A stretch of 64,000 nt of DNA from an uncultured Rhodocyclaceae bacterium. GTDB taxonomy: Bacteria > Pseudomonadota > Gammaproteobacteria > Burkholderiales > Rhodocyclaceae. A program made the translations under genes and the position numbers. How positions within the stretch are numbered: the stretch's first letter is position 1; each line of letters begins with the position of its first letter. The stretch covers positions 558,001 through 622,000 of the forward strand of contig OU015322.1 of assembly GCA_907163225.1 (NCBI GenBank), read 5' to 3'. This document shows, one piece after another, positions 2 to 58,064 of the stretch. The notes under the pieces were generated by a model. It was not told the origin of the DNA. It worked only from the letters and a program-made list of their open reading frames with translations, and ran no database searches.

Positions 2-760
2 CCCGGCGATCCCGGCGCGCTGGCGTCCGCCGTCGACCAACTGCTGGCCGACGCACGGAGCGAGCAGGCAACGCAACCCAAGGCCCTGATCGTGCCGCAC
101 GCCGGCTACGTCTATTCCGGTGCGACGGCGGCCACGGCCTACGCCACGCTGGCGCCGTGGGCCAAAACGATCCGCCGCGTCATCCTGCTCGGGCCGACGC
201 ACCGGGTGGCGCTCAACGGCATTGCGCTGCCCGAAGCCGAGGCATTTTCGACGCCGCTCGGTACCATTCGCCTCGACGCCCAGGCCATTGCCGCCATCGC
301 CGATATGCCGCAGATCGTTTTCAGCGACAAGGTGCATGCCTTCGAACATTCACTGGAGGTGCACCTTCCCTTCCTGCAGCGCGTGCTGACGCAGTTCACG
401 CTGGTTCCGCTCGCCGTTGGCGAAGCCTCACCGGAAGCCGTGGCCGAAGTCCTCGACCGCCTGTGGGACGGCCCGGAAACACTGATTGTGGTCAGTTCCG
501 ACCTCTCGCATTTCCTGCCCTACGGCACGGCGCAGCAGGTTGACCGCAACACCTGTCAGCACATTCTTCAGCTTGACGACCACCTCCAGCCGGAACAGGC
601 CTGTGGCGCCTTCCCGATCAATGGCCTGCTGCTCGCCGCCCGCCAGCGTGGCCTGACGCCGTCGCTGCTCGGCCTGTGCAACTCCGGCGACACGGCGGGT
701 GACCGCAACCGGGTGGTTGGCTACGCCGCCTTCAGCTTCCCGGAGGTTCGCCATGCCTGA
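2..760 (+). CDS. amrB: AmmeMemoRadiSam system protein B (MEMO1 family), 5' end cut by window
   Basis: The frame is open from base 2, and the residues before the first internal GTG (PGDPGALASAVDQLLADA) are typical of the N-terminal part of MEMO1-family proteins, so the gene starts outside the window; 252 residues are visible. Family hallmarks are PHAGYVYSG near the start, FEHSLEVHLPFLQ in the middle and VVSSDLSHF further on, which carry the His residues of the dioxygenase-like (LigB/MEMO) fold. The molecular function of MEMO proteins is not settled. It overlaps the next gene by 8 bases, and the two following genes complete the usual trio. The GTG at 92 is only an internal codon. Confidence 0.9.
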   Translation, partial: PGDPGALASAVDQLLADARSEQATQPKALIVPHAGYVYSGATAATAYATLAPWAKTIRRVILLGPTHRVALNGIALPEAEAFSTPLGTIRLDAQAIAAIADMPQIVFSDKVHAFEHSLEVHLPFLQRVLTQFTLVPLAVGEASPEAVAEVLDRLWDGPETLIVVSSDLSHFLPYGTAQQVDRNTCQHILQLDDHLQPEQACGAFPINGLLLAARQRGLTPSLLGLCNSGDTAGDRNRVVGYAAFSFPEVRHA

Positions 761-1301
761 ACTAGGCTTGACCTTGTTGATGGCTGCCCGCAACGCCATC
801 GCCGCCCGTCTCGGTCAGCCGATAAAAGCGGTGGTCGACCGACCGGAACTCCACGAAAAAGGTGCCACTTTCGTTACGCTGACCCAGCATGGAAACCTGC
901 GCGGTTGCATCGGCAGCCTTGAAGCCTGGCGGCCGCTGCTCAAGGACGTGCATGAAAACGCCCTCGCCGCTGCCTTCCGCGACCCGCGCTTCAAGCCGCT
1001 GAGTGCTGAAGAGTTACCAAACACCCAGGTCGAAATTTCATTGCTGACGCCGGCCGAGGCCATCTCCTTCACCAGCGAAACCGACGCGCTCGCCCAACTT
1101 CGGCCGGAAACCGATGGCGTCATCTTCACCGCAGGCAATCACCGCGCGACCTTCCTGCCGCAAGTCTGGGAACAATTGCCCGATCCGGTCAGTTTCATGG
1201 CCCATCTGAAACAAAAAGCCGGCCTCCCGGCCGATTACTGGGGGCCGGGCGTCCGGCTTGAGCGCTATCAAGTTCAAAAATGGAAGGAAAATTCGTGTTG
1301 A
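753..1301 (+). CDS. amrA: AmmeMemoRadiSam system protein A (AMMECR1 domain)
   Basis: A 182-residue AMMECR1-domain protein beginning MPELGLTLL. The start at 753 is chosen over an upstream in-frame ATG at 699 because a GGAGG sits about six bases before it and the reading then begins where the family does. The core LRGCIGS motif (residues about 47-53) is the invariant signature of the family, and FLPQVWEQLPDP near the C-terminus is also typical. Biochemical function is unknown; the human homologue is linked to Alport syndrome with elliptocytosis. It overlaps the MEMO gene before it and the radical-SAM gene after it, so translation is probably coupled. Confidence 0.93.
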   Translation: MPELGLTLLMAARNAIAARLGQPIKAVVDRPELHEKGATFVTLTQHGNLRGCIGSLEAWRPLLKDVHENALAAAFRDPRFKPLSAEELPNTQVEISLLTPAEAISFTSETDALAQLRPETDGVIFTAGNHRATFLPQVWEQLPDPVSFMAHLKQKAGLPADYWGPGVRLERYQVQKWKENSC

Positions 1302-1305
1302 CCGC
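1272..1305 (-). repeat. dispersed GCGGTCAAC motif with A/T tracts
   Basis: Core GCGGTCAAC (1305 to 1297 on the minus strand) followed by GAATTTT and ATTTTTG about one helical turn apart. It lies across the end of the AMMECR1 gene and the first codons of the radical-SAM gene. Confidence 0.6.
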
Positions 1306-2416
1306 GCCCCAACGGAAGTCCCCTGGCGGGATTGAATCCCTCCACCCCGCCCGCTGGTGGCACGCCCTGCCCGACGGCCGCGTGCAATGCGACCTCTGCC
1401 CGCGCGACTGCCAGTTGCACGAAGGCCAGCGCGGCGCCTGCTTCGTCCGCCAGATGGTCAATGGCGCCATGCAGCTGACGACCTACGGCCGCTCATCAGG
1501 CTTCTGCATCGACCCCATCGAGAAAAAACCGCTCAACCACTTCTACCCGGGCAGCAGCATCCTTTCCTTTGGCACCGCCGGCTGCAACCTGGCCTGCAAG
1601 TTCTGCCAGAACTGGGATATCTCCAAGTCGAAAGACATGGACCGTCTGATGGACAGCGCCAGCCCGCAGGAGATTGCACAGGCGGCCAAACGCTACGGCG
1701 CCGATGCGGTCGCCTACACCTACAACGACCCGGTGGTTTTTGCCGAATACGCCATCGACACCGCGCTCGCCTGCCGCGAGCAAGGCATCCGCAATGTGGC
1801 GGTCACCGCCGGCTACATTCACCCCGAGCCGGCGCGTGAATTCTTTGCGGTCATGGATGCAGCCAACGTCGATCTCAAGGCCTTCACGGACGGCTTCTAT
1901 CACAAGCTCTGCGTCGCCCACCTGCAGCCCGTTCTCGACACCCTCGCCTACATCCACCACGAAACCGACTGCTGGCTGGAAATCACCACGCTGCTCATCC
2001 CCGGCCAAAACGACAGCCCGCAGGAAATCAGCGAACTCACCACCTGGGTTGCCAAGGAACTCGGGCCTGACGTCCCGCTCCATTTCTCGGCCTTCCACCC
2101 TGACTGGAAAATGAGCGACACCCCGCCCACGCCGCCGGAAACGCTGACGCAAGCCCGCCGCATCGCGCTCGATGCGGGTCTGCACCATGTTTTCACCGGC
2201 AACGTCCATGACCACGAAGGCGGCACGACCTTCTGCCCAAGCTGCCATGCCGCACTGATCGTCCGCGACTGGTACGATATTCGCCGTTACGATCTGACGC
2301 CCGACGGCCATTGCCCGCATTGCCAGGCCACCATTGCCGGCCATTTCGGCCCGACGCTGGGCCATGATGGCAAAGCATTCGGCCCCTTCCGCATTCCCGT
2401 TCAACTGTCAAAATGA
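1280..2416 (+). CDS. amrS: AmmeMemoRadiSam system radical SAM enzyme
   Basis: A 378-residue radical S-adenosylmethionine protein. Cys102, Cys106 and Cys109 form the CxxxCxxC motif (GCNLACKFC) that would bind the 4Fe-4S cluster. An N-terminal CDLCPRDC (residues 37-44) and two C-terminal CxxC pairs (CPSC and CPHC) probably bind a second metal. The fold is closest to pyruvate-formate-lyase-activating-enzyme-like proteins. The substrate is unknown; by guilt of association it should act with the MEMO and AMMECR1 proteins encoded just upstream, whose genes it overlaps. The start at 1280 lies within the end of the AMMECR1 gene. A copy of the dispersed GTTGACCGC motif lies at codons 6-9. Confidence 0.92.
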   Translation: MEGKFVLTAPQRKSPGGIESLHPARWWHALPDGRVQCDLCPRDCQLHEGQRGACFVRQMVNGAMQLTTYGRSSGFCIDPIEKKPLNHFYPGSSILSFGTAGCNLACKFCQNWDISKSKDMDRLMDSASPQEIAQAAKRYGADAVAYTYNDPVVFAEYAIDTALACREQGIRNVAVTAGYIHPEPAREFFAVMDAANVDLKAFTDGFYHKLCVAHLQPVLDTLAYIHHETDCWLEITTLLIPGQNDSPQEISELTTWVAKELGPDVPLHFSAFHPDWKMSDTPPTPPETLTQARRIALDAGLHHVFTGNVHDHEGGTTFCPSCHAALIVRDWYDIRRYDLTPDGHCPHCQATIAGHFGPTLGHDGKAFGPFRIPVQLSK

Positions 2417-3006
2417 TTCGCCACATCACGCTGCAAACCGCGCACGGCCCGCTGCATGGTCAGCTTGAGCGGCCGGACTCCCCACGCGGCCTGATCCTGA
2501 TCGCCCGCTCGCATCACGCGGTGGCTGACGCGACTATCGCTGCCAACTTTGCCGAACTCGGCTACGCCACCTTCGCCATGGAATTGCTATCCACTCAGGA
2601 AATGCAGTTCATCGATGCCACACAGAACGTGCCGCGCCTCACGCAACGCCTCATCGACGTTCTCGACCTGATCCGCCACGATGGCGACATGCAGGCGCTA
2701 CCGCTGATTCTCTTCGCCTCCGGAGATGTGGCCCCGGCCGCCATCCGTGCCACCGCTCAGCGTGACGCTCAGGTAAAGGCGCTGGCCTGCCACGGCGGCC
2801 TGGTCGACCGCGCCGGGGTGCAGGCCCTCGAACTGCTCATCGCGCCCTTGCTCATGCTTTTCGACAGCGGCGAAGTCGTCGGAAAATCGGCCTACCTGCG
2901 CGCCAGAAACCATTTGCGAAACGCTCATGAAATGCGTGAACTGGATCAGGGTGAAAACCCGGCACAGGCCGCAGGAATCTGGTTTTCGAGAATTATTTCC
3001 GGTTGA
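2413..3006 (+). CDS. alpha/beta-hydrolase-like protein of unknown function
   Basis: A 197-residue protein whose layout (GLILIARSHHAVADATIAANFAELGYATFAMEL, later PLLMLFDSGE) resembles dienelactone-hydrolase-like alpha/beta hydrolases. The expected nucleophile elbow GxSxG is replaced by LFASGDVAP (about residue 99), so a classical Ser nucleophile is not obvious and catalysis is doubtful. It starts inside the radical-SAM stop codon (ATGA overlap), so it is probably translated with the AmmeMemoRadiSam trio. Its own TGA stop is formed by the dispersed motif at 3002-3010. I cannot assign a substrate. Confidence 0.7.
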   Translation: MIRHITLQTAHGPLHGQLERPDSPRGLILIARSHHAVADATIAANFAELGYATFAMELLSTQEMQFIDATQNVPRLTQRLIDVLDLIRHDGDMQALPLILFASGDVAPAAIRATAQRDAQVKALACHGGLVDRAGVQALELLIAPLLMLFDSGEVVGKSAYLRARNHLRNAHEMRELDQGENPAQAAGIWFSRIISG

Positions 3007-3010
3007 CCGT
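2981..3010 (-). repeat. dispersed ACGGTCAAC motif with A/T tracts
   Basis: ACGGTCAACCGG on the minus strand (core 3010 to 3002) followed by AAATAATT and GAAAAC. Read on the plus strand, the TGA inside GGTTGACCG is the stop codon of the preceding gene. Confidence 0.65.
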
Positions 3011-3044
3011 AACAATCGCCTTTCCGCGCCGGGACTAACGAAGT

Positions 3045-3050
3045 TATAAT
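3045..3050 (+). promoter_or_regulatory. candidate -10 element before the 3098 gene
   Basis: A perfect TATAAT lies 48 bases before the ATG at 3098, with a Shine-Dalgarno-like AGGGGAAG just before the start. No convincing -35 hexamer was found at 16-18 bases, so only the -10 is supported. Confidence 0.4.
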
Positions 3051-4325: not shown

Positions 4326-4352
4326 TAAAAAACCGGGTTGCCCCGGATTTTT
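4326..4352. terminator. bidirectional intrinsic terminator
   Basis: A short GC hairpin (CCGGG / CCCGG, 4332-4345) flanked by A6 on one side and T6 on the other. On the minus strand it lies 65 bases past the stop of the Hcp-like PEP-CTERM gene, where it would end that transcript. Confidence 0.75.
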
Positions 4353-4381
4353 TGTTTTCCCTGATTTTTCCGGTTGACCGT
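4347..4381 (-). repeat. dispersed ACGGTCAAC motif with A/T tracts, intergenic
   Basis: ACGGTCAACCGG (core 4381 to 4373 on the minus strand) followed by AAAAA and then AAAACAAAAAA. It lies between a PEP-CTERM gene and its terminator. Confidence 0.7.
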
Positions 4382-4416
4382 AGAAGAGCACGGCCAACCG
4401 GCGAACCGCCAAGGGT

Positions 4417-5290: not shown

Positions 5291-8200
5291 ATGCCGCACC
5301 GCGCCCTTGTGCCCAACTCAAACCACCTGCTTTCCCTCCCCGCCCTGCCCAAGCCCGGCACCCGAATCGATGTACCTTCTCTGGCTGGTTCATCCGACGC
5401 CCTGGCGCTAGCCGAAATTGCCGGCCGCAATGCTGGCAAGCTGCTCGCTGTCATCACTGCCAGCGCAGCGGATGCCCAGCGCCTGCTCGACGAGATTCCG
5501 TGGTTTGCCCCAAACCTGCGCGTGCGACAGTTGCCGGACTGGGAAACGCTGCCCTACGACCACTTTTCACCGCACCAGGATCTCGTTTCCGAGCGTCTGG
5601 CAACCTTGTGGTCCACCTTGCAGGGGCAGGTCGATATCCTGCTCGTGCCTGCATCAACCGCCGTCAACCGGCTGGCGCCGCCGGAGTTCATGGCCGCCTA
5701 CACGTTTGAGTTCAAGAAGGCGCAAAAGCTCGACGCCGAGAAATTCCGCAGCCAGGTCACGCTGGCTGGTTACGCTCACGTAACGCAAGTCGTGTCGCCC
5801 GGCGAATACTCGATCCGCGGCGGGCTGATTGACCTCTTCCCGATGGGTTCGCAGCTACCCTACCGGCTTGACCTGTTCGACGACGAAATTGAGAGCATCA
5901 AGACCTTCGACGTCGACACCCAGCGCACGGTTTACCCGGTGCCTGAAGTCCGCCTGCTGCCGGCCCGTGAATTCCCGATGGACGACAAGGGCCGCACCCA
6001 TTTCCGCCAGGCCTTCCGCGAGCGTTTCGAGGGTGACCCGGCCAAATCAGGCATTTACAAAGACATTTCCACCGGTATCGCCAGCGCCGGCATCGAGTAC
6101 TACCTGCCGCTGTTTTTTGATGAAATGGCGAGCATTTTCGACTACCTGCCGAAGGACGCCATTTTCGTCACCCACGGCGACGCGCCGGGCGCCATCGCCG
6201 CCTTCTGGAACGACACCCGCTCGCGCTACAACATGCTGCAGGGCGACAAGTCCCGGCCGCTGCTGCCGCCGGAAGAATTATTCCTGACCGACGAAGCCTT
6301 CTTCACCGCAGCAAAATCCTACGGTCGACTGGCATTTGAGGGCAAAAACGAAAACGCTTCCGGGAAACTGCCGAATATTGCCGTTGACCGCAGAAGCGAT
6401 GACCCGATCGGCGCGCTGAAAAGTTACCTCGCTGGATTCACTGGCCGCGTGCTGCTGGTTGCCGAAACCGCCGGCCGACGCGAAACGCTGGCCGCCATGT
6501 TTGCCGAACACGGCCTGAAACCGGAGGCCAGCACCGATCTTGCCGGCTTCCTGGGCGGCGACAGCCAACTTGCCCTCGGTATCGGCCCGCTACACGCCGG
6601 CTTTGCGCTGGAAAAGCTCGCTTTCATCACCGAAACCGAGCTTTTTGCCGGCTCACCACGGCGCACCCGGCGCGAATCGCAGAAGAAAGCCACCTTCGAC
6701 AACTGGCTGAAGGATCTGGCCGAACTCAAGGTCGGCGACCCAGTCGTCCACGAAAGCCACGGCATCGGCCGCTACCTTGGCCTAGTGCGCATGGATCTCG
6801 GCCTCGGCGAGCAGGAATTCCTCGAACTGCATTACGCCAACGAAGCCAAGCTCTTCGTGCCGGTCGCCCAGTTGCACGTCATTTCCCGCTATTCCGGCGC
6901 CGACCCGGAAAGTGCGCCGCTCCATACCCTCGGTTCCGGCCAGTGGGAAAAAGCCAAGCGCAAAGCGGCAGAACAGGCGCACGATACCGCGGCCGAACTG
7001 CTCGCCCTCTACGCCGCCCGCGCCGCCCGCCAGGGCCACTCCTTTGCATTTGACGAAAACGACTACGAAGCCTTTGCTGACGGCTTCGGCTTCGAGGAAA
7101 CCAACGACCAGGCGACGGCCATCGCCGCCGTCATCGAAGACATGCGCTCCGGCAAGCCGATGGATCGCCTGGTGTGCGGTGACGTTGGCTTCGGCAAGAC
7201 CGAAGTCGCCCTGCGCGCCGCCTTCTGCGCGGTGGCCGGTGGCAAGCAGGTGGCCGTGCTGTGTCCGACTACACTGCTTTGCGAGCAGCACTACCAGACA
7301 TTTGCCGACCGCTTTGCCGACTGGCCGGTCAAGATCGCCGAAATCTCCCGCTTCAAGACCGCCAAGGAATCGGCGCAGGCGCTGAAGGATCTGGCTGACG
7401 GCAAGATCGACATCATCATCGGCACGCACAAGCTGATCGGCAAGGACGTCAAGTTCAATCGCCTCGGCCTGGTAGTAATCGATGAGGAGCACCGTTTCGG
7501 CGTCCGCCAGAAGGAAACCTTGAAGGCCATGCGTGCCGAGGTCGATGTCCTGACCCTGACTGCCACGCCCATCCCACGTACGCTGGCGATGAGCATGGAA
7601 GGCCTGCGCGACTTCTCGGTGATCGCCACCGCACCGCAAAAACGCCTGGCCATCAAGACCTTCGTCAGCAACTTCTCCGACGGCATCATCCGCGAAGCCG
7701 TGCTGCGCGAGCTGAAGCGTGGCGGGCAAGTTTATTTCCTGCACAATGAAGTCGACACCATTAACAACATGCAGGAAAAACTGGCCAAGCTGGTGCCCGA
7801 AGCACGTATCGTCATCGGCCATGGCCAGATGAACGAACGCGAACTGGAACGCGTCATGCGTGACTTCACCGGCCAGCGCGCCAATGTCCTGCTGTGCACG
7901 ACCATTATCGAAACCGGCATCGACAACCCGCACGCCAACACCATCCTGATCAACCGCTCCGAAAAATTCGGCCTCGCCCAATTGCACCAGCTACGCGGCC
8001 GCGTCGGCCGTTCGCACCACCAGGCCTACGCCTACTTGTTGGTGCAGGACGAAAAGGCGCTGACCAAGCAGGCCCGAATGCGCCTGGAAGCCATTCAGGC
8101 TATGGAAGAACTGGGCTCCGGCTTCTTCCTCGCCATGCACGACCTGGAAATCCGCGGTGCCGGCGAAGTGCTCGGCGACAACCAGTCCGGCGAAATGCAG

Positions 8201-10816: not shown

Positions 10817-10874
10817 GTTTCTATACCAGGCGGCCAGACCCCTATTCATTTGTGTGGGATTGTCAGGCAGTGCC

Positions 10875-10905
10875 ACGGTCAACCGGAAATTTTGTCCAAA
10901 ATCGA
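10875..10905 (+). repeat. dispersed ACGGTCAAC motif with A/T tracts, intergenic
   Basis: ACGGTCAACCGG (core 10875-10883) followed by AAATTTT, GTCC and AAAATCG. It lies in the 97-base gap before the BCS1-like gene and is one of the best copies. Confidence 0.7.
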
Positions 10906-10913
10906 AATAATGC

Positions 10914-14607: not shown

Positions 14608-14948
14608 TTGCGGTGCCCTTCCTTCGCCATGTTGATGCTGTATTTCGGAATTTCGACCGTTAACGGCGTTGACCGCACAATTGCCTGACAACCGAGACGG
14701 GAATTGGGTTCCAGGCCCCAGGCCTTGTCGAGAAGGTCCTCTTCGATGTCCTCGGCGGCTTCGAGCGAGTTGAAACCCTCGCGCACGATGACGTGACAGG
14801 TCGTACAGGCACAGGACATCTCGCAGGCATGATCCAGCTCAATCTCATTGGCCAGCAGGTTTTCGCAGATCGACTTGCCTTCTTCCGCCTCGATTACCGC
14901 GCCATCCGGACACAACTCGACATGCGGCAGCACAATGATTTGTGTCAT
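14604..14948 (-). CDS. fdx: ISC-type 2Fe-2S ferredoxin
   Basis: 114 residues. The cluster ligands are Cys42, Cys48, Cys51 ([14 protein letters not shown]) and Cys87 (RLGCQA), with an extra Cys46 as in adrenodoxin-type ISC ferredoxins. It gives electrons for cluster assembly on IscU. C-terminal residues after [11 protein letters not shown] are usual for the group. A GTTGACCGC copy (14668-14676) lies in the last third of the gene. It overlaps hscA and iscX by four bases each. Confidence 0.96.
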
Positions 14949-33589: not shown

Positions 33590-33603
33590 AAACAGCCAAA
33601 AAT
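33575..33603 (+). repeat. dispersed GCGGTCAAC motif with A/T tracts
   Basis: GCGGTCAACCCG (core 33575-33583), then AAAAA, CAGCC and AAAAATG. It spans the C-terminal codons and stop of ygfZ. Confidence 0.65.
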
Positions 33604-34325
33604 GAAATGTGCCTGATCGTCGTCGGCTGGCGGGTTCATCCGGATTACCCGCTGGTCGTCGCGGCCAATCGTGACGAATTCTACGCCCGGCCAACCGTAC
33701 CCCTCGCGCACTGGCCAGAGGCGCCGGATGTCATCGGCGGGCGTGATCTGGAAGCCGGGGGAACATGGCTCGGCATCAGCCAAGCCGGACGGTTTGCCGC
33801 GGTTACCAATGTCCGCGAACCCGGCATGGCCAAGGGTGCGCTGTCACGAGGCGCGCTGCCCCGAGACTTCTTGACTTCTCGTGACTCAGCCGGCAAGTAC
33901 GCGTCAAAAATCGATGGTGCTGAGTATTCCGGCTTCAATCTATTGCTGGCCGATGGCGATTCGCTGCTCTATTTTTCCAATCGCGACGGAAATCCACGTC
34001 CGCTGGCATCGGGCGTCTATGGCCTGTCAAACCACCGACTCGACAGCCCCTGGCCCAAGCTGCTGACTGCGCGCGAAAATTTTGCCCAAGCCCTGCTCAA
34101 GCTGCCGGATGAATCAGCCTTTTTCAAACTGCTGGCCGATCAATCCATCGTGGCTGACGAAAGCCTGCCAAGCACCGGCGTTCCGATTGAATGGGAACGC
34201 CTGCTGTCTGCCGTCTTCGTCAAATCGGAAACCTACGGCACGCGTGCTTCGACGCTGGCCTGGCAGCGCAGCGACGGTATCGTCACCGTGCACGAAAACA
34301 GCTTTGGCCCGAATGGCCAGCCGCT

Positions 34326-35350
<1,025 letters not shown>

Positions 35351-41519: not shown

Positions 41520-43313
41520 TTAGAAAACTTCGTCGCCGATCCCTGCCAACGCACTATCCCCGGCCCTCACCGTTTCAGCGTAGGCGGCGGCCTGCGGCAG
41601 CATCTGGTCAGCGTAGAAGCGGGCCGTGGCGACTTTGGCTCGGTAGAAGGTCTGGTCTCCTTCGCCGGTGTCGAGGTAGCCGGCAGCGGCGAGCGCGGCC
41701 TTGCCCATGAACCAGCCGCCGCACACGGTGACGGACAGGTGCAGGTAGGGAACTGCTGCGGTCAACACGCCGGAAAGGCCGGTTTTTGCGTTGGCGGCCA
41801 GCCATTCCGTGGCATCCGTCCAGGCCTTGAGTGCGGCGCCGAGGCGCTGTCCGATGGCCATCAATTCCGGCTTGCCGGAGGCGCCGAGGGCTTTGGCGGT
41901 GGCGTGCACCTCGCCAAAAACGACCTTGGCGGTGGCGCCTTGATCGCGCATCAATTTGCGGAACAGCAAATCGTTGGCCTGAATGCCGGTCGTGCCTTCG
42001 TAGATGGTGGTGATGCGCGAATCGCGCCAGTGCTGGGCGGCGCCGGTTTCTTCGATGAAGCCCATGCCGCCGTAGATCTGGATGCCGAGCGAGGTGACTT
42101 CGATGCCCATTTCGGTACCGCCGCCCTTGACGATGGGGATCATGAATTCGGCCAGGAATAGCGATTTTTGTCGAATTTCCGGGTCGACCGCAGCATGCGC
42201 CCGGTCGAGCAGACCGGAGGCGTAGTAGGCCATGGCGCGGCAGGCTTCGACGCGGGATTTCATCAGCATCAGCATGCGGCGGATGTCGGGGTGTTTGTCG
42301 ATGGTGACCAGTGCTTCGCCGGTCACCGCATCGCGGCCCTGCTTGCGCTCGCGGGCAAAGGCCAGAGCCTGCTGATAGGCGCGCTCACCGACAGCGATGC
42401 CCTGCAGGCCGACGCCGAGGCGGGCTTCGTTCATCATGATGAACATGTATTCGAGGCCACGATTCGCTTCGCCGAGCAGGTAGCCGACAGCGCCGCCGTT
42501 GTCGCCATAAGCCATGACGCAGGTCGGGCTGGCGTGGATGCCGAGCTTGTGTTCGATGGAAACGCAGTAGGCATCATTGCGAGCGCCGAGACTGCCATCG
42601 GCATTGACCAGGAATTTCGGCACGAGGAACATCGAGATGCCCTTCACCCCGGCCGGCGCGTCGGGCAGGCGTGCGAGTACGAGGTGGACAATGTTGTCCG
42701 TCATGTCGTGGTCGCCGTAGGTGATGAAAATCTTCTGGCCGAATACCTTGTAGCTGCCGTCGGCCTGGGGTTCGGCGCGTGAGCGGATCAAGGCCAGATC
42801 GGAGCCGGCCTGCGGCTCGGTCAGGTTCATCGTGCCGGTCCATTGGCCGGTGATCATCTTTTCGAGGTAGATGGACTTCAACTCGTCGCTGGCGCAGGTC
42901 AGCAAGGCTTCGACAGCGCCCGTGGTGAGCAAGGGGCCGAGCGAAAAGGACAGGCTGGCCGAGCAGACCATTTCCTTGACTGCAACGCCCAGCGTGTCTG
43001 GCAGGCCTTGGCCGCCGAATTCGGCTGGCGAAGTGACGCCATTCCATCCGGCTTCGCAGAAGGCTTTGTAGGCTTCCTTCCAGCCCGGCGGCGTGGTGAC
43101 GCCGCCGGGCGTCAGCTTGCAGCCTTCCTTGTCGCCGAGACGATTGAGCGGGGCAATAACTCCACCGGTGAATCTGGCGGCTTCGTCGAGGACGGCGTCG
43201 GCGAGATCTGTGGTGGCATCCTCGAAACCGGGAATCTGGCTCAGTTCCTTGAAGCCGGCCAGTTCGTCCATGACGAAACGCATGTCTTTAACGGGTGCGC
43301 GGTAGTCACTCAT
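41520..43313 (-). CDS. acyl-CoA dehydrogenase, DmdC/AcdA-like long form
   Basis: 597 residues, longer than the about 380-residue standard enzymes because of a C-terminal domain (from about 465). MTGTMNLTEPQAGSDLALIR and RITTIYEGTTGIQANDL (with the catalytic Glu region YEGTTGI) are the signatures; FAD binding is expected. Relatives act on long or methylmercaptopropionyl-CoA substrates; the exact one cannot be read. It is the last gene of the fadBA-fadD operon, 24 bases after the NMO-like gene. An internal GCGGTCAAC copy lies at 41758-41766. Confidence 0.88.
   Translation of the reverse strand: MSDYRAPVKDMRFVMDELAGFKELSQIPGFEDATTDLADAVLDEAARFTGGVIAPLNRLGDKEGCKLTPGGVTTPPGWKEAYKAFCEAGWNGVTSPAEFGGQGLPDTLGVAVKEMVCSASLSFSLGPLLTTGAVEALLTCASDELKSIYLEKMITGQWTGTMNLTEPQAGSDLALIRSRAEPQADGSYKVFGQKIFITYGDHDMTDNIVHLVLARLPDAPAGVKGISMFLVPKFLVNADGSLGARNDAYCVSIEHKLGIHASPTCVMAYGDNGGAVGYLLGEANRGLEYMFIMMNEARLGVGLQGIAVGERAYQQALAFARERKQGRDAVTGEALVTIDKHPDIRRMLMLMKSRVEACRAMAYYASGLLDRAHAAVDPEIRQKSLFLAEFMIPIVKGGGTEMGIEVTSLGIQIYGGMGFIEETGAAQHWRDSRITTIYEGTTGIQANDLLFRKLMRDQGATAKVVFGEVHATAKALGASGKPELMAIGQRLGAALKAWTDATEWLAANAKTGLSGVLTAAVPYLHLSVTVCGGWFMGKAALAAAGYLDTGEGDQTFYRAKVATARFYADQMLPQAAAYAETVRAGDSALAGIGDEVF
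42163..42191 (-). repeat. variant GCGGTCGAC copy of the dispersed motif with A/T tracts
   Basis: GCGGTCGACCCGG followed by AAATTCG and CAAAAATCG on the minus strand: one core mismatch, but the A/T architecture is intact. Inside the acyl-CoA dehydrogenase gene. Confidence 0.45.
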
Positions 43314-46543: not shown

Positions 46544-47071
46544 TTAGTCTCCTCCACCGCTCTTTTGTCGGTAGTAATGTTTGTCGGCGATATAAACCGT
46601 CCGTTCCACCACCGTATGCACGGTGCCTTGCCGGTCTTTCAATTCGACCTCATAAGTCCGCTCAAGCTCCGGATTTTTCGCCAGTTCAGCCCGGATTTCA
46701 GCCAGCTCCTCGTCACTCAGCACAAAATCGGCATACAACGTAGAAAACCCGGGCTTGCGGTAACGAATGCTCGCCGCCTTGTCCCAGATGATATAGCCGT
46801 CGCCCAGCGCCGCCATCAGCATCATCGGATGCGCGCCGTCGGTGATCGCGAAGAGCGAACCACCGTAGAGGGAGCCGACAATATTCTTCGTCTTCCAGTT
46901 CAGCGGCAGACGAATCCTGATGTGACGCAGATCATTCGCCACATGGGTGACCCGCCCACCGGTGCTGCGAAAGGCCGGATGAAAATTGAAGCCGAGCCGC
47001 ACCATGCGTGCCCGCCAGGTCGGAGAGAGCTTGGCCAGCCAGGCGGGTTTCATGATGTCAATTTTGGCCAT
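46544..47071 (-). CDS. DUF4442 hotdog-fold protein, thioesterase-like
   Basis: 175 residues from MAKIDIMKPAWLAKL at 47071 (47053 is another ATG). The region STGGRVTHVANDLRHIRIRLPL, then NWKTKNIVGSLYGGSLFAITDGAHPMMLM, is the DUF4442/PaaI-like hotdog core. The family includes acyl-CoA thioesterases, and this one would release fatty acids or protect CoA in the fad operon. The upstream in-frame stretch is not needed and contains a dispersed-motif copy. Confidence 0.85.
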   Translation of the reverse strand: MAKIDIMKPAWLAKLSPTWRARMVRLGFNFHPAFRSTGGRVTHVANDLRHIRIRLPLNWKTKNIVGSLYGGSLFAITDGAHPMMLMAALGDGYIIWDKAASIRYRKPGFSTLYADFVLSDEELAEIRAELAKNPELERTYEVELKDRQGTVHTVVERTVYIADKHYYRQKSGGGD

Positions 47072-47088
47072 TTTTTTCGGTTGACCGT
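47058..47088 (-). repeat. dispersed ACGGTCAAC motif with A/T tracts, intergenic
   Basis: ACGGTCAACCG (core 47088 to 47080) followed by AAAAAAA, TGGCC and AAAATTG on the minus strand. It lies in the gap between fadA and the hotdog gene and runs into that gene's first codons. Confidence 0.7.
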
Positions 47089-47105
47089 GGCATTCGCGGA
47101 TTTCC

Positions 47106-48324: not shown

Positions 48325-50730
48325 TTAGTTGCGCAACGGCTTGCCGGTATCGAGCATGTGCTTGATCCGGGCCTGGGTCATGGGGTCTTTCAGCAGTTCG
48401 ACGAACAGGCGGCGTTCGACGGTGATCAGCCATTCCTCATCGACCAGGCTGCCCGTCTCGACCTCGCCACCACACAGGGCGATAGCTGCATATTTCGCGA
48501 CCTTGTAGTCGTGGGCGGAAATCATGCCGCCCTCCTTCATGTTCACCAGCATCATCTCGAACGTCGCGATACCGTTCTTGCCGGCAACCGGAATGGCGCG
48601 CGGCATGGGCGGCGGGGCGTAACCGGCATCGGCCATGGCGCGGGCTTCGCGGATGGCCACGAAGAGCAGTTCGTTGGCGTTGAACAGGATGGTGTCGGAC
48701 GGCTTGGCAAAGCCGTATTCGACGGCCTCGACAGCACTCGTCGCTACCTTGGCCATGGCGATGGTCATGAACGCCGGTTGCAGGAAGTTGAAGACCTCGC
48801 CCGGGGTGGCCGATTGCGCGGCCCAGTCAGCGGCACGCACGGTGAATTCCTTGCAACCGCCACCGGCCGGAATCAGGCCGACGCCCGCCTCGACCAGGCC
48901 GACATAGCTCTCCAGCGCCATGACCCGCTTGCCGGCATGCATGACGAATTCGCAGCCGCCACCCAGTGCCATGCCCTGCACAGCTGCAACGGTCGGGACT
49001 TGCGCGTACTTGAGGGTTTGCGAAGCGCGCTGGAATTTCTCGACGGTCTGTTCAAGCAGATCGAACTGGCCGGCAGCAATGGCTTCCGTCACCTGCGCCA
49101 GATTGGCGCCGACGGCAAACGGTGCTTCGTGCCAGATCACCACGCCATCGAGCGTCGTTTCAGCATGGCGCACGGCAGCGATGACGCCGTCGAGCACTTC
49201 GTTGCCGATGGTATGCATCTTCGACTTGACAGAAATGATGCCGATTTTCCCGTCGACCGCAGGCAAGGTCCAAAGGCGAACGCCATCGTTTTCGTACAGC
49301 GTTTCACCGGATTTCCCAGGCGTTGCGCCGCTCTCGCCGAGCACGCGCTCGGGAAAGAGCTGGCGCTGATAGACAGGCAATGCCGAGCGGGCAGCGTAGG
49401 CATTCTTGCTGGCCGAATACGAACCCTGTGCCGTATGCACGCCGGTACGTCCGGCATCCAGCACCCAGGCCGGCAGCAGCGTGGCGCTCATGGCTTTGCC
49501 GGCGGCGATGTCGGCGGCGATGGCCTGCGCGATGTCGCTCCAGCCGGCGGCCTGCCAGGTTTCGAACGGCCCCTGCGACCAGCCGAAGCCCCAGCGCATG
49601 GCCAGGTCGAGATCGCGGGCGTTGTCGGCAACGTTTTCGAGCTGCACGGCGGCGTAGTGGAAAATGTCGCGGAAGATGGCCCACAGGAATTGCGCCTGCG
49701 GGTGCGCCGAGGCGCGCAGAGCAGCGAACTTCTCGGCCGGGTTCTTCATCTTTAGGATGGCGTCGACTTCCTCGGCCACTTCGCCAGCCGACTTGCGGTA
49801 ATCCTGCGCCTTCAGGTCCAGCACCTGAATTTCCTTGCCCTGCTTGCGGAAGATGCCGCAACGGGTTTTCTGGCCGAGCGCGCCCTGGGCGATCAGCGCC
49901 TGCAGCCAGGCCGGGTTGGTGAAATAGGCATGCCACGGATCGTTGGGCAGCGTGTCCTGCATGGTCTTGACGACATGAGCCAGCGTATCGAGGCCGACGA
50001 CATCGGCGGTGCGATAGGTGGCGCTCTTCGGGCGACCGATCTTCGGGCCGGTCAGCGCATCGACTTCATCGAAGCCGAGGCCGAAGGCCTGCGTGTGGTG
50101 CATGACGGCGAGAATGGACATGACGCCGATGCGGTTGGCAACGAAGTTAGGCGTATCGAGCGCACGGATGACGCCCTTGCCAAGACGCGATGTCAGCCAG
50201 GTTTCCAGCGCATCGAGCGTGCCGCCGTCCGTACTCTGCGTGCCGATGATCTCGACCAGATGCATGTAGCGCGGCGGATTGAAAAAGTGGATGCCGCAGA
50301 AGCGCGGACGAACCGCTTCCGGCAGCCCTTGGGCCAGCGCATTCATCGACAGGCCGGAGGTGTTTGAGGCAATGATGGCGTTCGGCGCGAGGTGCGGCGC
50401 GATCTTCGCGTAGAGGTCGTTCTTCCAGTCCATGCGCTCGGCGATGGCCTCGATAACGAGATCGCACTCGGCGAGCAGCGGCAGATGCTCGTCGTAGTTG
50501 GCCGCATCGATGAACTGCAGCTTGCCCTTGCTGGCCAGCGGTGCCGGGTCCAGCTTCTTCAGGCCATCGAGGGCCTTGTTGACGATGCCGTTCTTGTCAC
50601 CTTCCTTGGCCGGCAGGTCGAACAGCACGACCGGCACGTTGGCGTTGGCGAGGTGCGCAGCAATCTGCGCCCCCATCACGCCAGCGCCCAGAACGGCCGC
50701 TTTCTTCACGATCAGCTTGTTCAATTGCAT
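48325..50730 (-). CDS. fadB: bifunctional 3-hydroxyacyl-CoA dehydrogenase / enoyl-CoA hydratase (FadN-like order)
   Basis: 801 residues. The dehydrogenase comes first (AAVLGAGVMGAQIAAHLANANV, NAD-binding; SNTSGLSMNALAQGLP; PRFCGIHFFNPPRYM), the hydratase second (GVVIWHEAPFAVGANL, MALGGGCEFVMHAGKRVMA, EAGVGLIPAGGGCKEF). This order is the reverse of E. coli FadB and is that of Bacillus FadN. The ATG at 50730 has GGAG directly in front; a TTG at 50724 would have better spacing (six bases). Its promoter lies at 50782-50809, with a TetR operator after it. Confidence 0.93.
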   Translation of the reverse strand: MQLNKLIVKKAAVLGAGVMGAQIAAHLANANVPVVLFDLPAKEGDKNGIVNKALDGLKKLDPAPLASKGKLQFIDAANYDEHLPLLAECDLVIEAIAERMDWKNDLYAKIAPHLAPNAIIASNTSGLSMNALAQGLPEAVRPRFCGIHFFNPPRYMHLVEIIGTQSTDGGTLDALETWLTSRLGKGVIRALDTPNFVANRIGVMSILAVMHHTQAFGLGFDEVDALTGPKIGRPKSATYRTADVVGLDTLAHVVKTMQDTLPNDPWHAYFTNPAWLQALIAQGALGQKTRCGIFRKQGKEIQVLDLKAQDYRKSAGEVAEEVDAILKMKNPAEKFAALRASAHPQAQFLWAIFRDIFHYAAVQLENVADNARDLDLAMRWGFGWSQGPFETWQAAGWSDIAQAIAADIAAGKAMSATLLPAWVLDAGRTGVHTAQGSYSASKNAYAARSALPVYQRQLFPERVLGESGATPGKSGETLYENDGVRLWTLPAVDGKIGIISVKSKMHTIGNEVLDGVIAAVRHAETTLDGVVIWHEAPFAVGANLAQVTEAIAAGQFDLLEQTVEKFQRASQTLKYAQVPTVAAVQGMALGGGCEFVMHAGKRVMALESYVGLVEAGVGLIPAGGGCKEFTVRAADWAAQSATPGEVFNFLQPAFMTIAMAKVATSAVEAVEYGFAKPSDTILFNANELLFVAIREARAMADAGYAPPPMPRAIPVAGKNGIATFEMMLVNMKEGGMISAHDYKVAKYAAIALCGGEVETGSLVDEEWLITVERRLFVELLKDPMTQARIKHMLDTGKPLRN

Positions 50731-50782: not shown

Positions 50783-50809
50783 TTATAGGTCAGCCACTTC
50801 TGCGGTCAA
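50782..50809 (-). promoter_or_regulatory. fadBA operon promoter
   Basis: On the minus strand: -35 TTGACC (50809 to 50804), 16-base spacer, -10 TATAAT (50787 to 50782). The -35 is part of a dispersed GTTGACCGC motif copy; the -10 abuts the TetR operator. Confidence 0.65.
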
Positions 50810-50829
50810 CCGGAATTTCGGGCAAATTT
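50802..50829 (+). repeat. dispersed GCGGTCAAC motif with A/T tracts, intergenic
   Basis: GCGGTCAACCGG (core 50802-50810) followed by AATTT, CGGGC and AAATTT. It is between fadB and fadL, and its minus strand supplies the fadB -35. Confidence 0.7.
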
Positions 50830-50862
50830 ACAAAAAAATCCCCGGACGGGCCGGGGATTGAA
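50830..50862 (-). terminator. fadL intrinsic terminator
   Basis: ATCCCCGG / CCGGGGAT hairpin followed on the minus strand by a run of seven T. It lies just after the fadL stop (50883). Confidence 0.85.
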
Positions 50863-54201: not shown

Positions 54202-54228
54202 GCGTTTTGCTCCTGCTGGCCGATTGCT

Positions 54229-54260
54229 GCGGTCAACCGGAAAAAATGCCCGAAATTGAA
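54229..54260 (+). repeat. dispersed GCGGTCAAC motif with A/T tracts, intergenic
   Basis: GCGGTCAACCGG (core 54229-54237) followed by AAAAAA, TGCCCG and AAATTG. It lies in the fadI-fadJ gap. Confidence 0.7.
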
Positions 54261-54273
54261 ATCGGTGTTCATG

Positions 54274-55554
54274 TCAGAGCGCCTCCACCAGCATCGCGCC
54301 GCCAAGGCCACCACCAATGCAAATGGTCGCAACCCCACGCTTGGCCTGATTGCGCCTCAACACATGCAGCAGATGCAGCACGATGCGTGCGCCCGAGGCG
54401 CCGACCGGGTGGCCGATGGCGACAGCGCCGCCATCAACGTTGAGCCTGTCCTCGTCAATGTTGCCGAGGGCGCCGGGCAGGTCGAGTTGTTCGCGGCAGT
54501 ACTCGTCGGATTTCCACGCAGCCTGACAGCCAAGCACCTGCGCGGCGAAGGCTTCATTCAGCTCCCAGAAATCAATATCGTTCAGACCGAGGCCGTGCCG
54601 TTGCAGGATGGGCGTCGCAGCGTGCACCGGGCCGAGGCCCATCTGTGCTGGATCGAGGCCGGCCCATTCACTGTCGACGATCTTGCCGATCGGTTTGAGG
54701 CCCCATTTCTGCACAGCCTCTTCCGACGCGAGAATCACCCAGGCGGCGCCGTCGGTGATCTGCGAGCTGTTGGCCGCAGTGATGTTGCCGTATTTCTTGT
54801 CGAAGAAAGGCTTGAGCTTGGCCATGCCGGCCATGCTGGCGTCGGCGCGCACGCCGTCGTCTTCCGCATAGACCTTGCCCTGCCCATCGACGACCGGAAC
54901 GATCTCGCTGTAGTAACCGGCGGCGCGAGCCGACATTGCCTTCAAATGACTTTTGACAGCGAACTCGTCCATCTGCTGGCGGTTGATGCCGAATTTCCAG
55001 GCCAGGTTTTCGGCCGTCTGGCCCATCAACAGGCCGACGACCGGATCGGTCAGGCCTTTCATCAAACCAATCACCGGCTTCAGCAACTCGGCCAGCGGCA
55101 ATTTCAAAAAATGGCCGATTTTCTGGTTGACCGTGCGCAAGCTCATCATGCCGGCGAACCAGCGCACCATGGCGTCGGAATAGAGCAGCGGCGCCCGGGA
55201 CAGCGCATCGACGCCGCCGGCCAGCACGAGTTCGGAGCGCCCGCACTGGATGTTGGCGATGGCGGAGTCGATGGCCTGCATGCCCGAGGCGCAGTTGCGC
55301 ATCACCGTCCAGCCCGGTACTTTTTTCCCGCAGCCAAGGCGCAGGGCGACCATGCGGCCGATGTTGGTTTCGTCCGGTGAGGGCGCGGCACAACCGAGGA
55401 TGACCTCGTCGAGATCGCTCGGTGCGAACGGCTGGCGCAGCAGCAATGCCCTGCCAGCCTGGGTGGCGAGATCGGATGCGGCGAAGACGCCTGGGCCTTT
55501 TTGGGCTTTGAGGAACGGCGAACGGGCACCGTCGACAACGTAGATCTGCTTCAC
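54274..55554 (-). CDS. fadI: acetyl-CoA C-acyltransferase, FadI-like thiolase
   Basis: 426 residues starting GTG at 55554 (MKQIYVVDGARSPFLKAQ). The nucleophile Cys is in RNCASGMQAIDSAIAN, His in GAVAIGHPVGASGARI, second Cys in ATICIGGGLGGAML. It pairs with FadJ as in fadIJ. A second thiolase (fadA) is 6 kb away. A GTTGACCGT copy lies inside (55126-55134). It follows fadE by 100 bases, with a long hairpin in the gap. Confidence 0.92.
   Translation of the reverse strand: MKQIYVVDGARSPFLKAQKGPGVFAASDLATQAGRALLLRQPFAPSDLDEVILGCAAPSPDETNIGRMVALRLGCGKKVPGWTVMRNCASGMQAIDSAIANIQCGRSELVLAGGVDALSRAPLLYSDAMVRWFAGMMSLRTVNQKIGHFLKLPLAELLKPVIGLMKGLTDPVVGLLMGQTAENLAWKFGINRQQMDEFAVKSHLKAMSARAAGYYSEIVPVVDGQGKVYAEDDGVRADASMAGMAKLKPFFDKKYGNITAANSSQITDGAAWVILASEEAVQKWGLKPIGKIVDSEWAGLDPAQMGLGPVHAATPILQRHGLGLNDIDFWELNEAFAAQVLGCQAAWKSDEYCREQLDLPGALGNIDEDRLNVDGGAVAIGHPVGASGARIVLHLLHVLRRNQAKRGVATICIGGGLGGAMLVEAL
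55104..55134 (-). repeat. dispersed ACGGTCAAC motif with A/T tracts
   Basis: ACGGTCAACCAG (core 55134 to 55126) followed by AAAAT, CGGCC and ATTTTTTG on the minus strand, in the FadI gene. Confidence 0.6.
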
Positions 55555-55570
55555 TGGGAATGCCTTTCGA

Positions 55571-55633
55571 CGCAGAGACGCCGAGTCGCAGAGAAAGCCA
55601 AACTCTCGAATTTCTCTGCGCCGCGCCTCTGCG
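55571..55633. repeat. nested inverted repeat of CGCAGAG type
   Basis: CGCAGAGAAA (55587-55596) pairs with TTTCTCTGCG (55611-55620), and CGCAGAG (55571-55577) pairs with CTCTGCG (55627-55633). Such CGCAGAG-rich palindromes are common dispersed repeats in bacterial genomes. It may slow transcription between fadE and fadI. Confidence 0.6.
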
Positions 55634-55654
55634 ATTCAACAATCATCGCTTCAC

Positions 55655-58009
55655 TCATGCCGCCATCCTTGATTCCGCCGGCTTGTTGGCCGTTGCCACG
55701 CCGTAGTCGAAGGGGAAGTCATCGACATGGACGACGATATCGCGCAGGTGGTTGCGCACCTTCATGATTTCGTAATCTGCGTTGCTGATCACGCCAGCCT
55801 CGAAAGCGACGATGGCGATGTCACGCACGTTGGCCTGCGGGTTGTTGTCGAACTGCCCGGCCTTTTCGGCTTCGCGGATTCTGGCCTCGATGGGTTCGGC
55901 CAGCAGCGTCGCCTTGAGCGCCAGTTCGATGGCGCCGACCGGCTCGGTTTCGACCAGCGGCAGATAGCATTCGGCGGTCAGCCGGTCGCGGGTAGCGGAC
56001 GGGGCGATCAGCGCCTTGGCAACCTGATGGCCGACCTCGTCGGATGGCACGACGTAGGGGTGGCCCCACGGGAAGATCGAGCGATGCAGGAAGGCGGCGA
56101 TGAAACGCACCGGGAAGTTGGCGATGACGCCGTCGAAAGCTTCCTGCGCCTTGTACATGGCATCCCAGATCGCCCAGTGGGCGAGCGGCGCATCCTCGAT
56201 CTTGCGGCCTTCTTCCTCGTAGCGCTTGAGCGTGCAGGAAATCAGGTACATCTGGGCCAGAATGTCGCCGAGTCGTGCCGACAGCTTTTCACGCCGTTTG
56301 ACGCTGCCGCCAAGGACGAGCAGCGAGATGTCGGCCATGAAAGCAAAGGCCGCCGAGAAGCGCGTCAGTTGCTGGTAGTAACGCTTCATTTCCGGCGCCG
56401 TTTCGACGTTGACCGCAGCAAAGTGCGACCCGGTCATGCCCAGCCACAGCGCACGGAAACCATTCTTGATCGTGAAGCCGATATGGCCGAACAACGCCTT
56501 GTCGAAATCGACCAGCCCCTGCTTCTGATCCGGATTCTGCGCCGCCTGCATTTCCGGCAGCAGATACGGATGGCAGCGGATGGCGCCCTGGCCGAAGATG
56601 ATCAGCGAGCGCGTCAAAATGTTGGCGCCTTCGACGGTGATGCCGATCGGCACCTGCTGGTAGGCACGGCCCATGAAGTTCGACGGGCCAAGGCAGATGC
56701 CCTTGCCGCCGATGACGTCCATGCCGTCATTGACCACCTGACGGGCGCGTTCGGTGACGTGGTACTTGGCTATGGCCGAAACGACCGACGGTTTCTCGCC
56801 GAGATCGACGGCGCCGGCCGTCATCTTGCGCACGGCGTCCATCATGTAGGTGTACGCGCCGATGCGGGTCAGCGCTTCCTCGACGCCCTCGAACTTGCCG
56901 ACAGCCATCTTGAATTGCGAACGCACGCGGGCATAACCGCCCACGGCGCGTGCAGTCATCTGGGCCATGCCGGTATTGGAAGACGGCAGCGAAATCGAGC
57001 GTCCGGCGGCCAGGCACTCCATCAACATCCGCCAGCCGTGACCGGCCTTTTCCGGACCGCCGATGATGAAATCGAGCGGCATGAAAACGTCCTTGCCGCG
57101 CGTCGGGCCGTTCATGAACATGGCGTTGAGCGGGAAATGGCGGCGGCCGGTATCGACACCCGGATGGTCGTAGGGGACCAACGCACAGGTGATGCCGATG
57201 TGTTTCTTGTCACCGAGCAGGCCATCCGGATCGAACAGGTGGAAAGCCAGGCCGAATACCGTGCACACCGGCGCCAGCGTGATGTAGCGCTTGTCCCACG
57301 AAACGCGCATGCCGAGCACTTCCTTGCCCTGCCACATGCCCTTGCAGACAACGCCGGTATCGGGAATGGAAGCCGCATCAGAGCCGGCCCACGGGCTGGT
57401 CAGCGCGAAAGCCGGCACCTCGATGCCCTTGGCCAAGCGCGGCAGGTAATGATTCTTCTGTTCGTCGGTACCGTAGTGCAGCAGCAGTTCGGCCGGGCCG
57501 AGCGAGTTCGGCACCATGACCGAAACCGACAGCGCGCTGGAACGCGTCGACAACTTGGTCACCACCTGCGAATGGGCGTAGGCCGAAAACTCCAGGCCGC
57601 CGTACTTCTTCGGGATAATCATGCCGAGGAAGCCCTTGTCCTTGATGTAGCGCCAGGCTTCGGTCGGCAGGTCGTAAAGTTCGTGCGTGACCTGCCAGTC
57701 ATTGACCAGGCGGCAAGCTTCTTCGCATTCGTTATCGAGGAAGGACTGCTCTTCGCGCGTCAGCTTCGGCTGCGGGTAGGCGTGCAGTTTCTGCCAGTCC
57801 GGCTTGCCGCGGAACAGCTCGCCCTCCCACCAGACGCTGCCCGCTTCAAGCGCGTCGCGCTCGGTATCCGACATCTGCGGCAGCACCTTGCGGTAGGTGG
57901 AAAAAATGGGCCGGGTGATCAGCGCCCGGCGGATCGGCCGGACGAGAATCAGCCCGACCAAAGCCACCAGGGTGACGAACCCGAGCAGAGGGATGAGGTT
58001 GTTGAACAT
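55655..58009 (-). CDS. fadE: acyl-CoA dehydrogenase FadE
   Basis: 784 residues, the long FadE type, from the ATG at 58009 preceded by GGAG; the upstream in-frame stretch runs through the dispersed-motif copy. N-terminal membrane segment (LIPLLGFVTLVALVGLIL), then ALTSPWAGSDAASIPDTG (acyl-CoA dehydrogenase signature 1) and a long C-terminal region. It makes trans-2-enoyl-CoA and is the rate-limiting step. It follows the TetR gene by 61 bases. Confidence 0.95.
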   Translation of the reverse strand: MFNNLIPLLGFVTLVALVGLILVRPIRRALITRPIFSTYRKVLPQMSDTERDALEAGSVWWEGELFRGKPDWQKLHAYPQPKLTREEQSFLDNECEEACRLVNDWQVTHELYDLPTEAWRYIKDKGFLGMIIPKKYGGLEFSAYAHSQVVTKLSTRSSALSVSVMVPNSLGPAELLLHYGTDEQKNHYLPRLAKGIEVPAFALTSPWAGSDAASIPDTGVVCKGMWQGKEVLGMRVSWDKRYITLAPVCTVFGLAFHLFDPDGLLGDKKHIGITCALVPYDHPGVDTGRRHFPLNAMFMNGPTRGKDVFMPLDFIIGGPEKAGHGWRMLMECLAAGRSISLPSSNTGMAQMTARAVGGYARVRSQFKMAVGKFEGVEEALTRIGAYTYMMDAVRKMTAGAVDLGEKPSVVSAIAKYHVTERARQVVNDGMDVIGGKGICLGPSNFMGRAYQQVPIGITVEGANILTRSLIIFGQGAIRCHPYLLPEMQAAQNPDQKQGLVDFDKALFGHIGFTIKNGFRALWLGMTGSHFAAVNVETAPEMKRYYQQLTRFSAAFAFMADISLLVLGGSVKRREKLSARLGDILAQMYLISCTLKRYEEEGRKIEDAPLAHWAIWDAMYKAQEAFDGVIANFPVRFIAAFLHRSIFPWGHPYVVPSDEVGHQVAKALIAPSATRDRLTAECYLPLVETEPVGAIELALKATLLAEPIEARIREAEKAGQFDNNPQANVRDIAIVAFEAGVISNADYEIMKVRNHLRDIVVHVDDFPFDYGVATANKPAESRMAA

Positions 58010-58033
58010 GCTGTTGTCTCCTTTTATGTCTTT

Positions 58034-58064
58034 TTGATTTTGGTCGTTTTTTCCGGTTGACCGC
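58034..58064 (-). repeat. dispersed GCGGTCAAC motif with A/T tracts, intergenic
   Basis: GCGGTCAACCGG (core 58064 to 58056) followed by AAAAAA, CGACC and AAAATC on the minus strand. It lies between the TetR gene and fadE; the neighbouring bases GCTGCGGTCAACCGGAAAA match the copy at 54229. Confidence 0.7.

Follow-up and report, generated by a model that had tools for sequence, protein, structure and literature searches.

The 64,000-nucleotide stretch analysed here, called the window (positions 558001-622000 of contig OU015322.1, from an uncultured Rhodocyclaceae bacterium), carries many copies of a directional, roughly 40-bp motif, in which a core, GTTGACCGYAGCA, lies behind AT tracts spaced about 11 bp apart. 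This motif is very probably an uptake-type signal sequence, which the receptor of a type IV pilus machinery would prefer, so that DNA of the cell's own kind is taken up and recombined. From its sequence properties, a role in DNA uptake is the best-fitting reading, and the proposal that it would work like the uptake signal sequence (USS) of Pasteurellaceae is well supported. More broadly, it is likely that the motif represents a third independent uptake-specificity system, in the Rhodocyclales, that has several dialects and has been lost repeatedly inside a single environmental genus. Its CGGT core and phased AT tracts would have converged on, or share deep receptor ancestry with, the gammaproteobacterial USS and not the betaproteobacterial DNA uptake sequence (DUS).

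A first-pass annotation of the window had listed 20 exact copies of the 9-mer GTTGACCGY, 14 in one orientation and 6 in the other, as an excess of about 20-fold over a chance expectation of about one. Every listed core is exact and correctly placed, and the plus-strand count holds, while two minus-strand cores, at 23206 and 44588, had been overlooked, bringing the window to 22 copies (14 plus and 8 minus). Strong over-representation is confirmed, with a lower factor of about 17, as 100 dinucleotide shuffles of the window gave a mean of 1.29 copies and a maximum of 5. In the whole genome, a single contig of 3,463,890 bases, GTTGACCGY is found 970 times (512 + 458) and the reversed pattern 180 times (84 + 96), which is not a count that composition alone would give; the extended 10-mer GTTGACCGYA has 572 copies. 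Further analyses used a 464-kb sample composed of the window and 20 stretches of 20 kb (L009-L028). Against a third-order Markov background in this sample, GTTGACCGCA occurs 60 times with 1.9 expected, and its z-score ranks first among all 10-mers with at least 8 copies.

Separately, CGAGCAGG is likewise in excess in the same sample (146 copies versus 44 expected), perhaps as a result of codon usage, and k-mers similar to it rank high in relatives that do not have the motif.

The 9-mer stands as the core of the element; the whole is a composite that includes the AT tracts, as defined by the alignment of 146 cores from the 464-kb sample. Along the motif, AT tracts split by a GC-rich spacer are followed by CCG, GTTGACCG and YRGCA. 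The tracts occupy positions -9 to -4 and -20 to -15, with a weaker one at -25 to -22, and no conservation was found outside -25 to +14 in the core alignment. Read on the other strand, TGCTRCGGTCAAC comes first, and the AT-rich tracts, two or three in number, follow at intervals of about one turn of the helix.

A 41-column position weight matrix of 30 bits, used with a site threshold of 14 bits, identified 171 sites in the 464 kb (0.37 per kb; two or more places are counted twice, once per strand) versus 3 in a third-order Markov simulation, and no site of at least 14 bits in the reversed 464-kb sequence. Since the matrix was trained on the sequence in which it was counted, it is the reversed control and the other genomes that carry weight. 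By extrapolation, the genome would contain roughly 1,300 full-motif sites. Behind a good AT context, 82 cores are perfect, 28 have one mismatch and 5 have two, after which the background is reached; 24 of the 28 single-mismatch cores share a T to C change at position 3. The core is thus unusually strict, as in uptake sequences. In the window, 20 of the 22 9-mers sit in sites of at least 14 bits, the exceptions being those at 539 and 32220, and 5 additional sites have variant cores. The window sites, with bit scores from the weight-matrix scan, are the following:

1271..1311, plus strand: full motif, weak, 19.2 bits, core at 1297
2976..3016, plus strand: full motif, 39.5 bits, core at 3002, intergenic
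4347..4387, plus strand: full motif, 38.0 bits, core at 4373, intergenic
6315..6355, minus strand: full motif with a variant core, 36.5 bits, in mfd
6357..6397, plus strand: full motif, 28.1 bits, core at 6383, in mfd
10869..10909, minus strand: full motif, 44.3 bits, core at 10875, intergenic
14642..14682, plus strand: full motif, 29.2 bits, core at 14668
16566..16606, plus strand: weak motif with a variant core, 18.2 bits, in hscA
19625..19665, plus strand: full motif, 36.1 bits, core at 19651
23200..23240, minus strand: full motif, 25.8 bits, core at 23206, overlooked earlier
28672..28712, minus strand: full motif, 37.2 bits, core at 28678
33569..33609, minus strand: full motif, 43.6 bits, core at 33575
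34641..34681, plus strand: full motif, 25.7 bits, core at 34667
36594..36634, minus strand: full motif with a variant core, 35.5 bits, in guaA
39518..39558, plus strand: full motif, 35.2 bits, core at 39544
41752..41792, minus strand: weak motif, 17.8 bits, core at 41758
42157..42197, plus strand: full motif with a variant core, 36.4 bits
44582..44622, minus strand: full motif, 24.1 bits, core at 44588, overlooked earlier
47054..47094, plus strand: full motif, 45.5 bits, core at 47080, intergenic
49226..49266, plus strand: full motif with a variant core, 26.6 bits, in a fadB-like gene
50796..50836, minus strand: full motif, 40.3 bits, core at 50802, intergenic
54223..54263, minus strand: full motif, 50.2 bits (the strongest in the window), core at 54229, intergenic
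55100..55140, plus strand: full motif, 29.4 bits, core at 55126
56382..56422, plus strand: full motif, 27.5 bits, core at 56408, in a fadE-like gene
58030..58070, plus strand: full motif, 46.2 bits, core at 58056, intergenic
539..547, plus strand: bare 9-mer, full motif below 14 bits, probably chance
32220..32228, plus strand: bare 9-mer, full motif below 14 bits, probably chance or decayed

Elsewhere in the sample, three near-identical stretches within 1.2 kb (L026:174, 487 and 1322) each contain the motif, a local repeat having copied the site.

As had been stated, the sites lie in unrelated genes (mfd, hscA, guaA, fadB-like and fadE-like genes in the window) and in gaps, in both orientations, and do not belong to a paralogous family. 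Genes were called with a simple gene finder of our own, which assigned 83% of bases as coding and missed atypical genes; on this basis, 121 of the 171 sites are inside genes and 50 outside, 5 of the latter at stretch ends. The density is 0.31 sites per kb in genes, 0.86 in tandem gaps, 0.93 in convergent gaps and 0.23 in divergent (promoter) gaps. When genes are ranked by codon typicality, the most typical fifth has 0.62 sites per kb and the least typical 0.41. There are 83 sites on the plus strand and 88 on the minus strand, and genic sites run along the gene in 55 cases and oppose it in 66 (p 0.36). Using GC skew as a proxy for the replication strand (145 of the 171 sites, weak-skew stretches being excluded), no link of orientation to skew was found, with 29 and 30 sites in the two orientations at positive skew and 43 and 43 at negative skew. 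The spacing of sites is more even than random (coefficient of variation 0.72 versus 0.96, standard deviation 0.07).

The motif is not confined to the window species, and many Dechloromonas and Azonexus species carry hundreds of copies. Enrichment, taken as a GTTGACCGYA count no less than fivefold that of the reversed control (plus one), was found, by our reckoning, in 35 of the 76 genomes of the genus, with up to 712 copies, so that the absence from close relatives that would have spoken against a recognition sequence is not what is seen. The remaining genomes comprise 7 at two to five times the control and 34 lower, with a borderline case, G204 (36 copies), where a weak excess of GTCGACCGCG is present. 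Outside the genus, none of the 146 other genomes of the family, as we read the counts, reached twice its own control for GTTGACCGC, and the largest GTTGACCGYA count in 368 other genomes of the class is 47, versus 572 in the genome of the window. A few genomes of the class with small counts exceed their control (G423, for example, with 14 versus 1). In IMG/VR, the one exact 19-base pattern tried had no match.

A ComEC search with the query of the window species gave 33 loci, up to 82% identical, mostly from Dechloromonas/Azonexus or labelled Rhodocyclaceae, Azonexaceae, Beta- or Proteobacteria, including D. denitrificans, D. hortensis and Dechloromonas sp. H13. Enriched genomes occur in deep as well as shallow branches of a quick, midpoint-rooted tree built from ComEC alone for 65 genomes. 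When only well-supported branches are considered, at least 11 changes of 'high' and 8 of 'low' are required, a count that is somewhat too high because the high, mid and low labels rest on the 10-mer of one dialect and one dialect clade was labelled low. Since enriched genomes are found throughout the tree, the pattern is read as ancestral presence with repeated loss in the genus.

De novo k-mer counting in several relatives, with about 100 kb taken from each, revealed other forms of the core: GTCGACCGTGA in G147, GTCGACCGTG and GTCGACCGTCA in G156, GTCGACCGCAG in G189, GTTGACCGTGG in G182 and CCGACCGTAGC/GACCGTAGCAT in G190. All the dialects found have GACCG in common. GACCGTAGCAT is present in 468 copies in G190, 328 in G198 and 385 in G216 (controls 0, 0 and 2), and in 0 to 73 copies in the other 73 genomes (73 in G166, 71 in G197, 48 in G167 and 0 to 7 in most). 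These three genomes, scored as low by the first pattern, group together as a clade in the ComEC tree, with a support of 99. When the matrix was refitted to each genome, the A+T content came to 73-95% in the -15 to -20 tract and to 52-95% in the nearer tract (background 33-43%); the other dialects have a strong further tract, and in some of them the nearer one is weaker. In these logos, small samples inflate the information content, and seeding with AT context partly builds in the AT tracts. No comparable k-mer was found in 99-120 kb from each of the low relatives G150, G154, G112, G159, G165, G181, G169, G203 and G170, the part of the low genomes that was searched; G112 and G159 retain 7 and 3 sites of the window species' matrix, respectively. 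Repeats of other kinds were also encountered: G161 (L220-L223) has AGGAGCAGGAG-type 11-mers in 17-18 copies per 100 kb versus at most 0.2 expected, probably a tandem repeat, and G112 (L064-L068), with its few motif sites, has repeats of the GGCGGGAATCCAG kind, whose overlapping k-mers reach 5-8 copies per 100 kb.

The fate of the motif at orthologous places was followed by all-against-all alignment of comEC neighbourhoods, in which pairs are not independent. Between enriched genomes, 1710 of 2256 pairs are gapless and the motif is kept in 1381; between enriched and low genomes, 1019 of 1641 are gapless and it is kept in 50. A recount on the first 4000 stored comparisons, with the third dialect removed from the low genomes, found the motif kept in 1242 of 1544 gapless enriched-enriched comparisons versus 7 of 757 enriched-low ones. 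The identity of the 8-base core is 93% between enriched genomes, where the alignments average 77%, and 66% to low genomes, where they average 75%. Most orthologous alignments being gapless, the motif appears to arise by substitution, despite the excess of gaps discussed below. The count, the context, the strict consensus, the mostly gapless alignments, the maintenance at orthologous places and the clade dialects all support the earlier suggestion of a genome-wide recognition sequence.

Passages of PMC12616744 indicate that the Neisseriaceae and Pasteurellaceae are the only families known for uptake-sequence preference, and the passages on uptake sequences in a 2026 terminator survey name these two alone. 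No paper pairing Dechloromonas or Rhodocyclaceae with 'uptake sequence' was found among the open-access papers searched, a scope that excludes subscription papers and preprints. Azonexus was absent among the matches listed in a looser search for this genus and uptake sequences, and literal searches for core strings in papers gave chance-like results among the matches listed.

The traits of the known systems compared here are those described in passages of PMC1626085, PMC3630211 and PMC12616744. The Pasteurellaceae reference cores are AAGTGCGGT (Hin-USS) and ACAAGCGGT (Apl-USS). Like the USS as portrayed in sections of PMC1626085 and PMC12616744, the motif joins a strict core to two AT-rich tracts 3' of ...CGGT, has no orientation bias, is mostly genic yet denser outside genes, would originate by substitution and has dialects by subclade. 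The tract spacing is about 11 bp here versus the 12 described for the USS, and the reverse-strand core of the window species, TGCGGTCAAC, has TGCGGT in common with Hin-USS. However, family, order and core are different, and ANNNGCGGT is not required, the dialects keeping only CGGTC. The distance from CGGT to the first AT tract is about 7 bases here versus about 1 in the USS, as reckoned from positions given in part of PMC1626085. The density is lower, some species have a third AT tract, and at least five core variants occur in one genus.

The Neisseriaceae reference is GCCGTCTGAA and its dialects. Both systems have hundreds of copies and dialects that track phylogeny around an invariant inner core, which is CTG in the DUS, according to passages of PMC3630211 and PMC12616744, and GACCG here. 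Type IV pilins occur in both groups, and a pilin of the PF16732 type is present here. In contrast, the core is unrelated to the DUS, described in a passage of PMC1626085 as devoid of flanking motifs. In its anatomy the motif comes nearest to the USS. Membership in the Pasteurellaceae USS or the Neisseriaceae DUS proper fails on the core.

In the proposed mechanism, the motif would be bound at the cell surface, with a minor pilin as the candidate receptor, and would bias DNA uptake; biased uptake followed by recombination would make the motif abundant and keep it so. Of the 76 genomes of the genus, 71 have ComEC, 75 have DprA and 70 have a pilin of the PF16732 (ComP_DUS) family. The window species has all three, with its pilin at G000:1087435 scoring 51.8 bits (cut-off 27.3). 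This pilin is followed, up to position 1094904, by frames with matches to GspH, PilV-like (just under the cut-off), PilW and a weak PilX, and by a long PilY1-like frame; we take the GspH frame to be FimT-like and the long one to be a PilY1-like protein. The fold prediction for the pilin was poor (mean pLDDT 48.7) and was not used.

Several observations weigh against an uptake function. At 0.37 sites per kb, the motif is sparser than the USS and DUS, which occur about once per kb. Close pairs are not in excess, with 5 under 80 bp versus 4.8 expected in any orientation; 4 of the 5 are opposite-facing, and in two of these the members, separated by 4 bp, may represent a single site that scored in both orientations. 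Sites show gaps more often than random windows do, both in enriched targets (546 of 2256 versus 274 of 2067) and in unenriched ones (622 of 1641 versus 255 of 1598), and gaps of more than 6 bases number 197 and 229, respectively, versus 50 and 41 in random windows. This excess may be attributed to intergenic sites, where gaps may be commoner anyway. As for the machinery, the PF16732 pilin occurs in genomes enriched or not and is therefore non-discriminating. In the genome of the window, no ComEA was found above the cut-off, the sole TIGR00426 match being a frame of more than 800 aa that falls below it, and no frame under 547 aa matched PF12836 (HHH_3). Two other genomes, G180 and G185 (76% complete), also have no recognisable ComEA, and all three are motif-rich. 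In Vibrio cholerae, the passage of DNA into the periplasm requires ComEA (PMC3879209). Because it has no recognisable ComEA, the window species is perhaps not competent now; competence may have been lost recently, or another factor may take the place of ComEA. In part of their paper, Redfield et al. read the persistence of dense and strong uptake sequences as a sign of recent competence losses in Pasteurellaceae (PMC1626085).

The state of comEC is a further difficulty. The gene is interrupted in the motif-rich D. hortensis (L131) and G198 (L125), and it is apparently full-length in G170, G165 and G181, which have no motif. Interrupted, split or shortened copies are found in the low genomes G157, G169, G203, G220, G194 and G150, as well as in the motif-bearing D. 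hortensis, G182, G198 and G196; in this second group the copies of G160 and G167 are also incomplete, perhaps because of assembly. With defects on both sides, comEC state does not separate motif-rich from low genomes.

There are four rival explanations. A cytoplasmic DNA-organising protein, such as a nucleoid or segregation factor, could occupy about a thousand sites in each genome, with the AT tracts bending the DNA and the near-palindrome binding a dimer. CGGTYGACCG is indeed near-palindromic, and perfectly so in the GTCGACCG variant, and the even spacing points the same way. However, a clade dialect replacing hundreds of sites and the absence from many congeneric species are not readily explained by such a protein, the core is stricter than usual regulatory sites and no strand pattern is seen, making this explanation unlikely. 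Chi, KOPS and similar polar chromosome motifs are strand-biased and short, Chi being an octamer. A Chi-kind recombination hotspot for a RecBCD- or AddAB-like enzyme would fit the hundreds of copies, mostly genic, but the motif is, at about 40 bp, much longer than an octamer, has AT tracts and is equally oriented relative to GC skew. A Chi-like polar motif was rejected on this lack of strand bias with replication (GC skew as proxy), and the hotspot explanation is judged highly improbable.

A promoter, operator or terminator element of a very large regulon could account for the higher site density between genes; moreover, TTGACC resembles a -35 box, and a TATAAT follows at 50802. Nevertheless, no -10 signal was detected at a spacing of 16-19 (at least 4 matches at 5% of sites versus 4% at random), most sites are genic and in both orientations, divergent gaps are the poorest in sites and close pairs are not in excess, which leaves a regulon very unlikely as well. 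Spread by insertion of a small mobile or copied repeat (REP- or MITE-like) would be consistent with the strict consensus, the high copy number and the gap excess at sites relative to random windows. Against it, most orthologous comparisons are gapless, no sequence is conserved outside the motif limits and the core has been replaced clade-wide; such a repeat has hardly any likelihood as the source of the motif.

Should the motif be an uptake signal, it would provide a third case of this specificity, in free-living bacteria, and would indicate that 'self' labels evolve repeatedly. The dialects and losses within one genus would then constitute a natural experiment on dialect change, and co-variation would help to find the receptor. 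The motif would also be of practical use in the transformation of Dechloromonas and Azonexus, two genera studied in sewage treatment and for their reduction of perchlorate, nitrate and nitrous oxide.

Finally, comEC ends near codon 237-262 in seven relatives (L125, L131, L127, L152, L139, L169 and L170), with breaks at L125:7652-10001, upstream of 10001 in L131 and L127 and upstream of 9158 in L152. The remaining part of the gene lies 2.3 kb upstream in L125, is matched more than 30 kb away in G203 and G182, and was unseen in the rest. One junction sequence is common to L125, L131 and L127, and another, together with a D5/VapE-like primase gene, to L152 and L139. The position appears to be a hotspot at which mobile elements of two or more kinds have integrated repeatedly.

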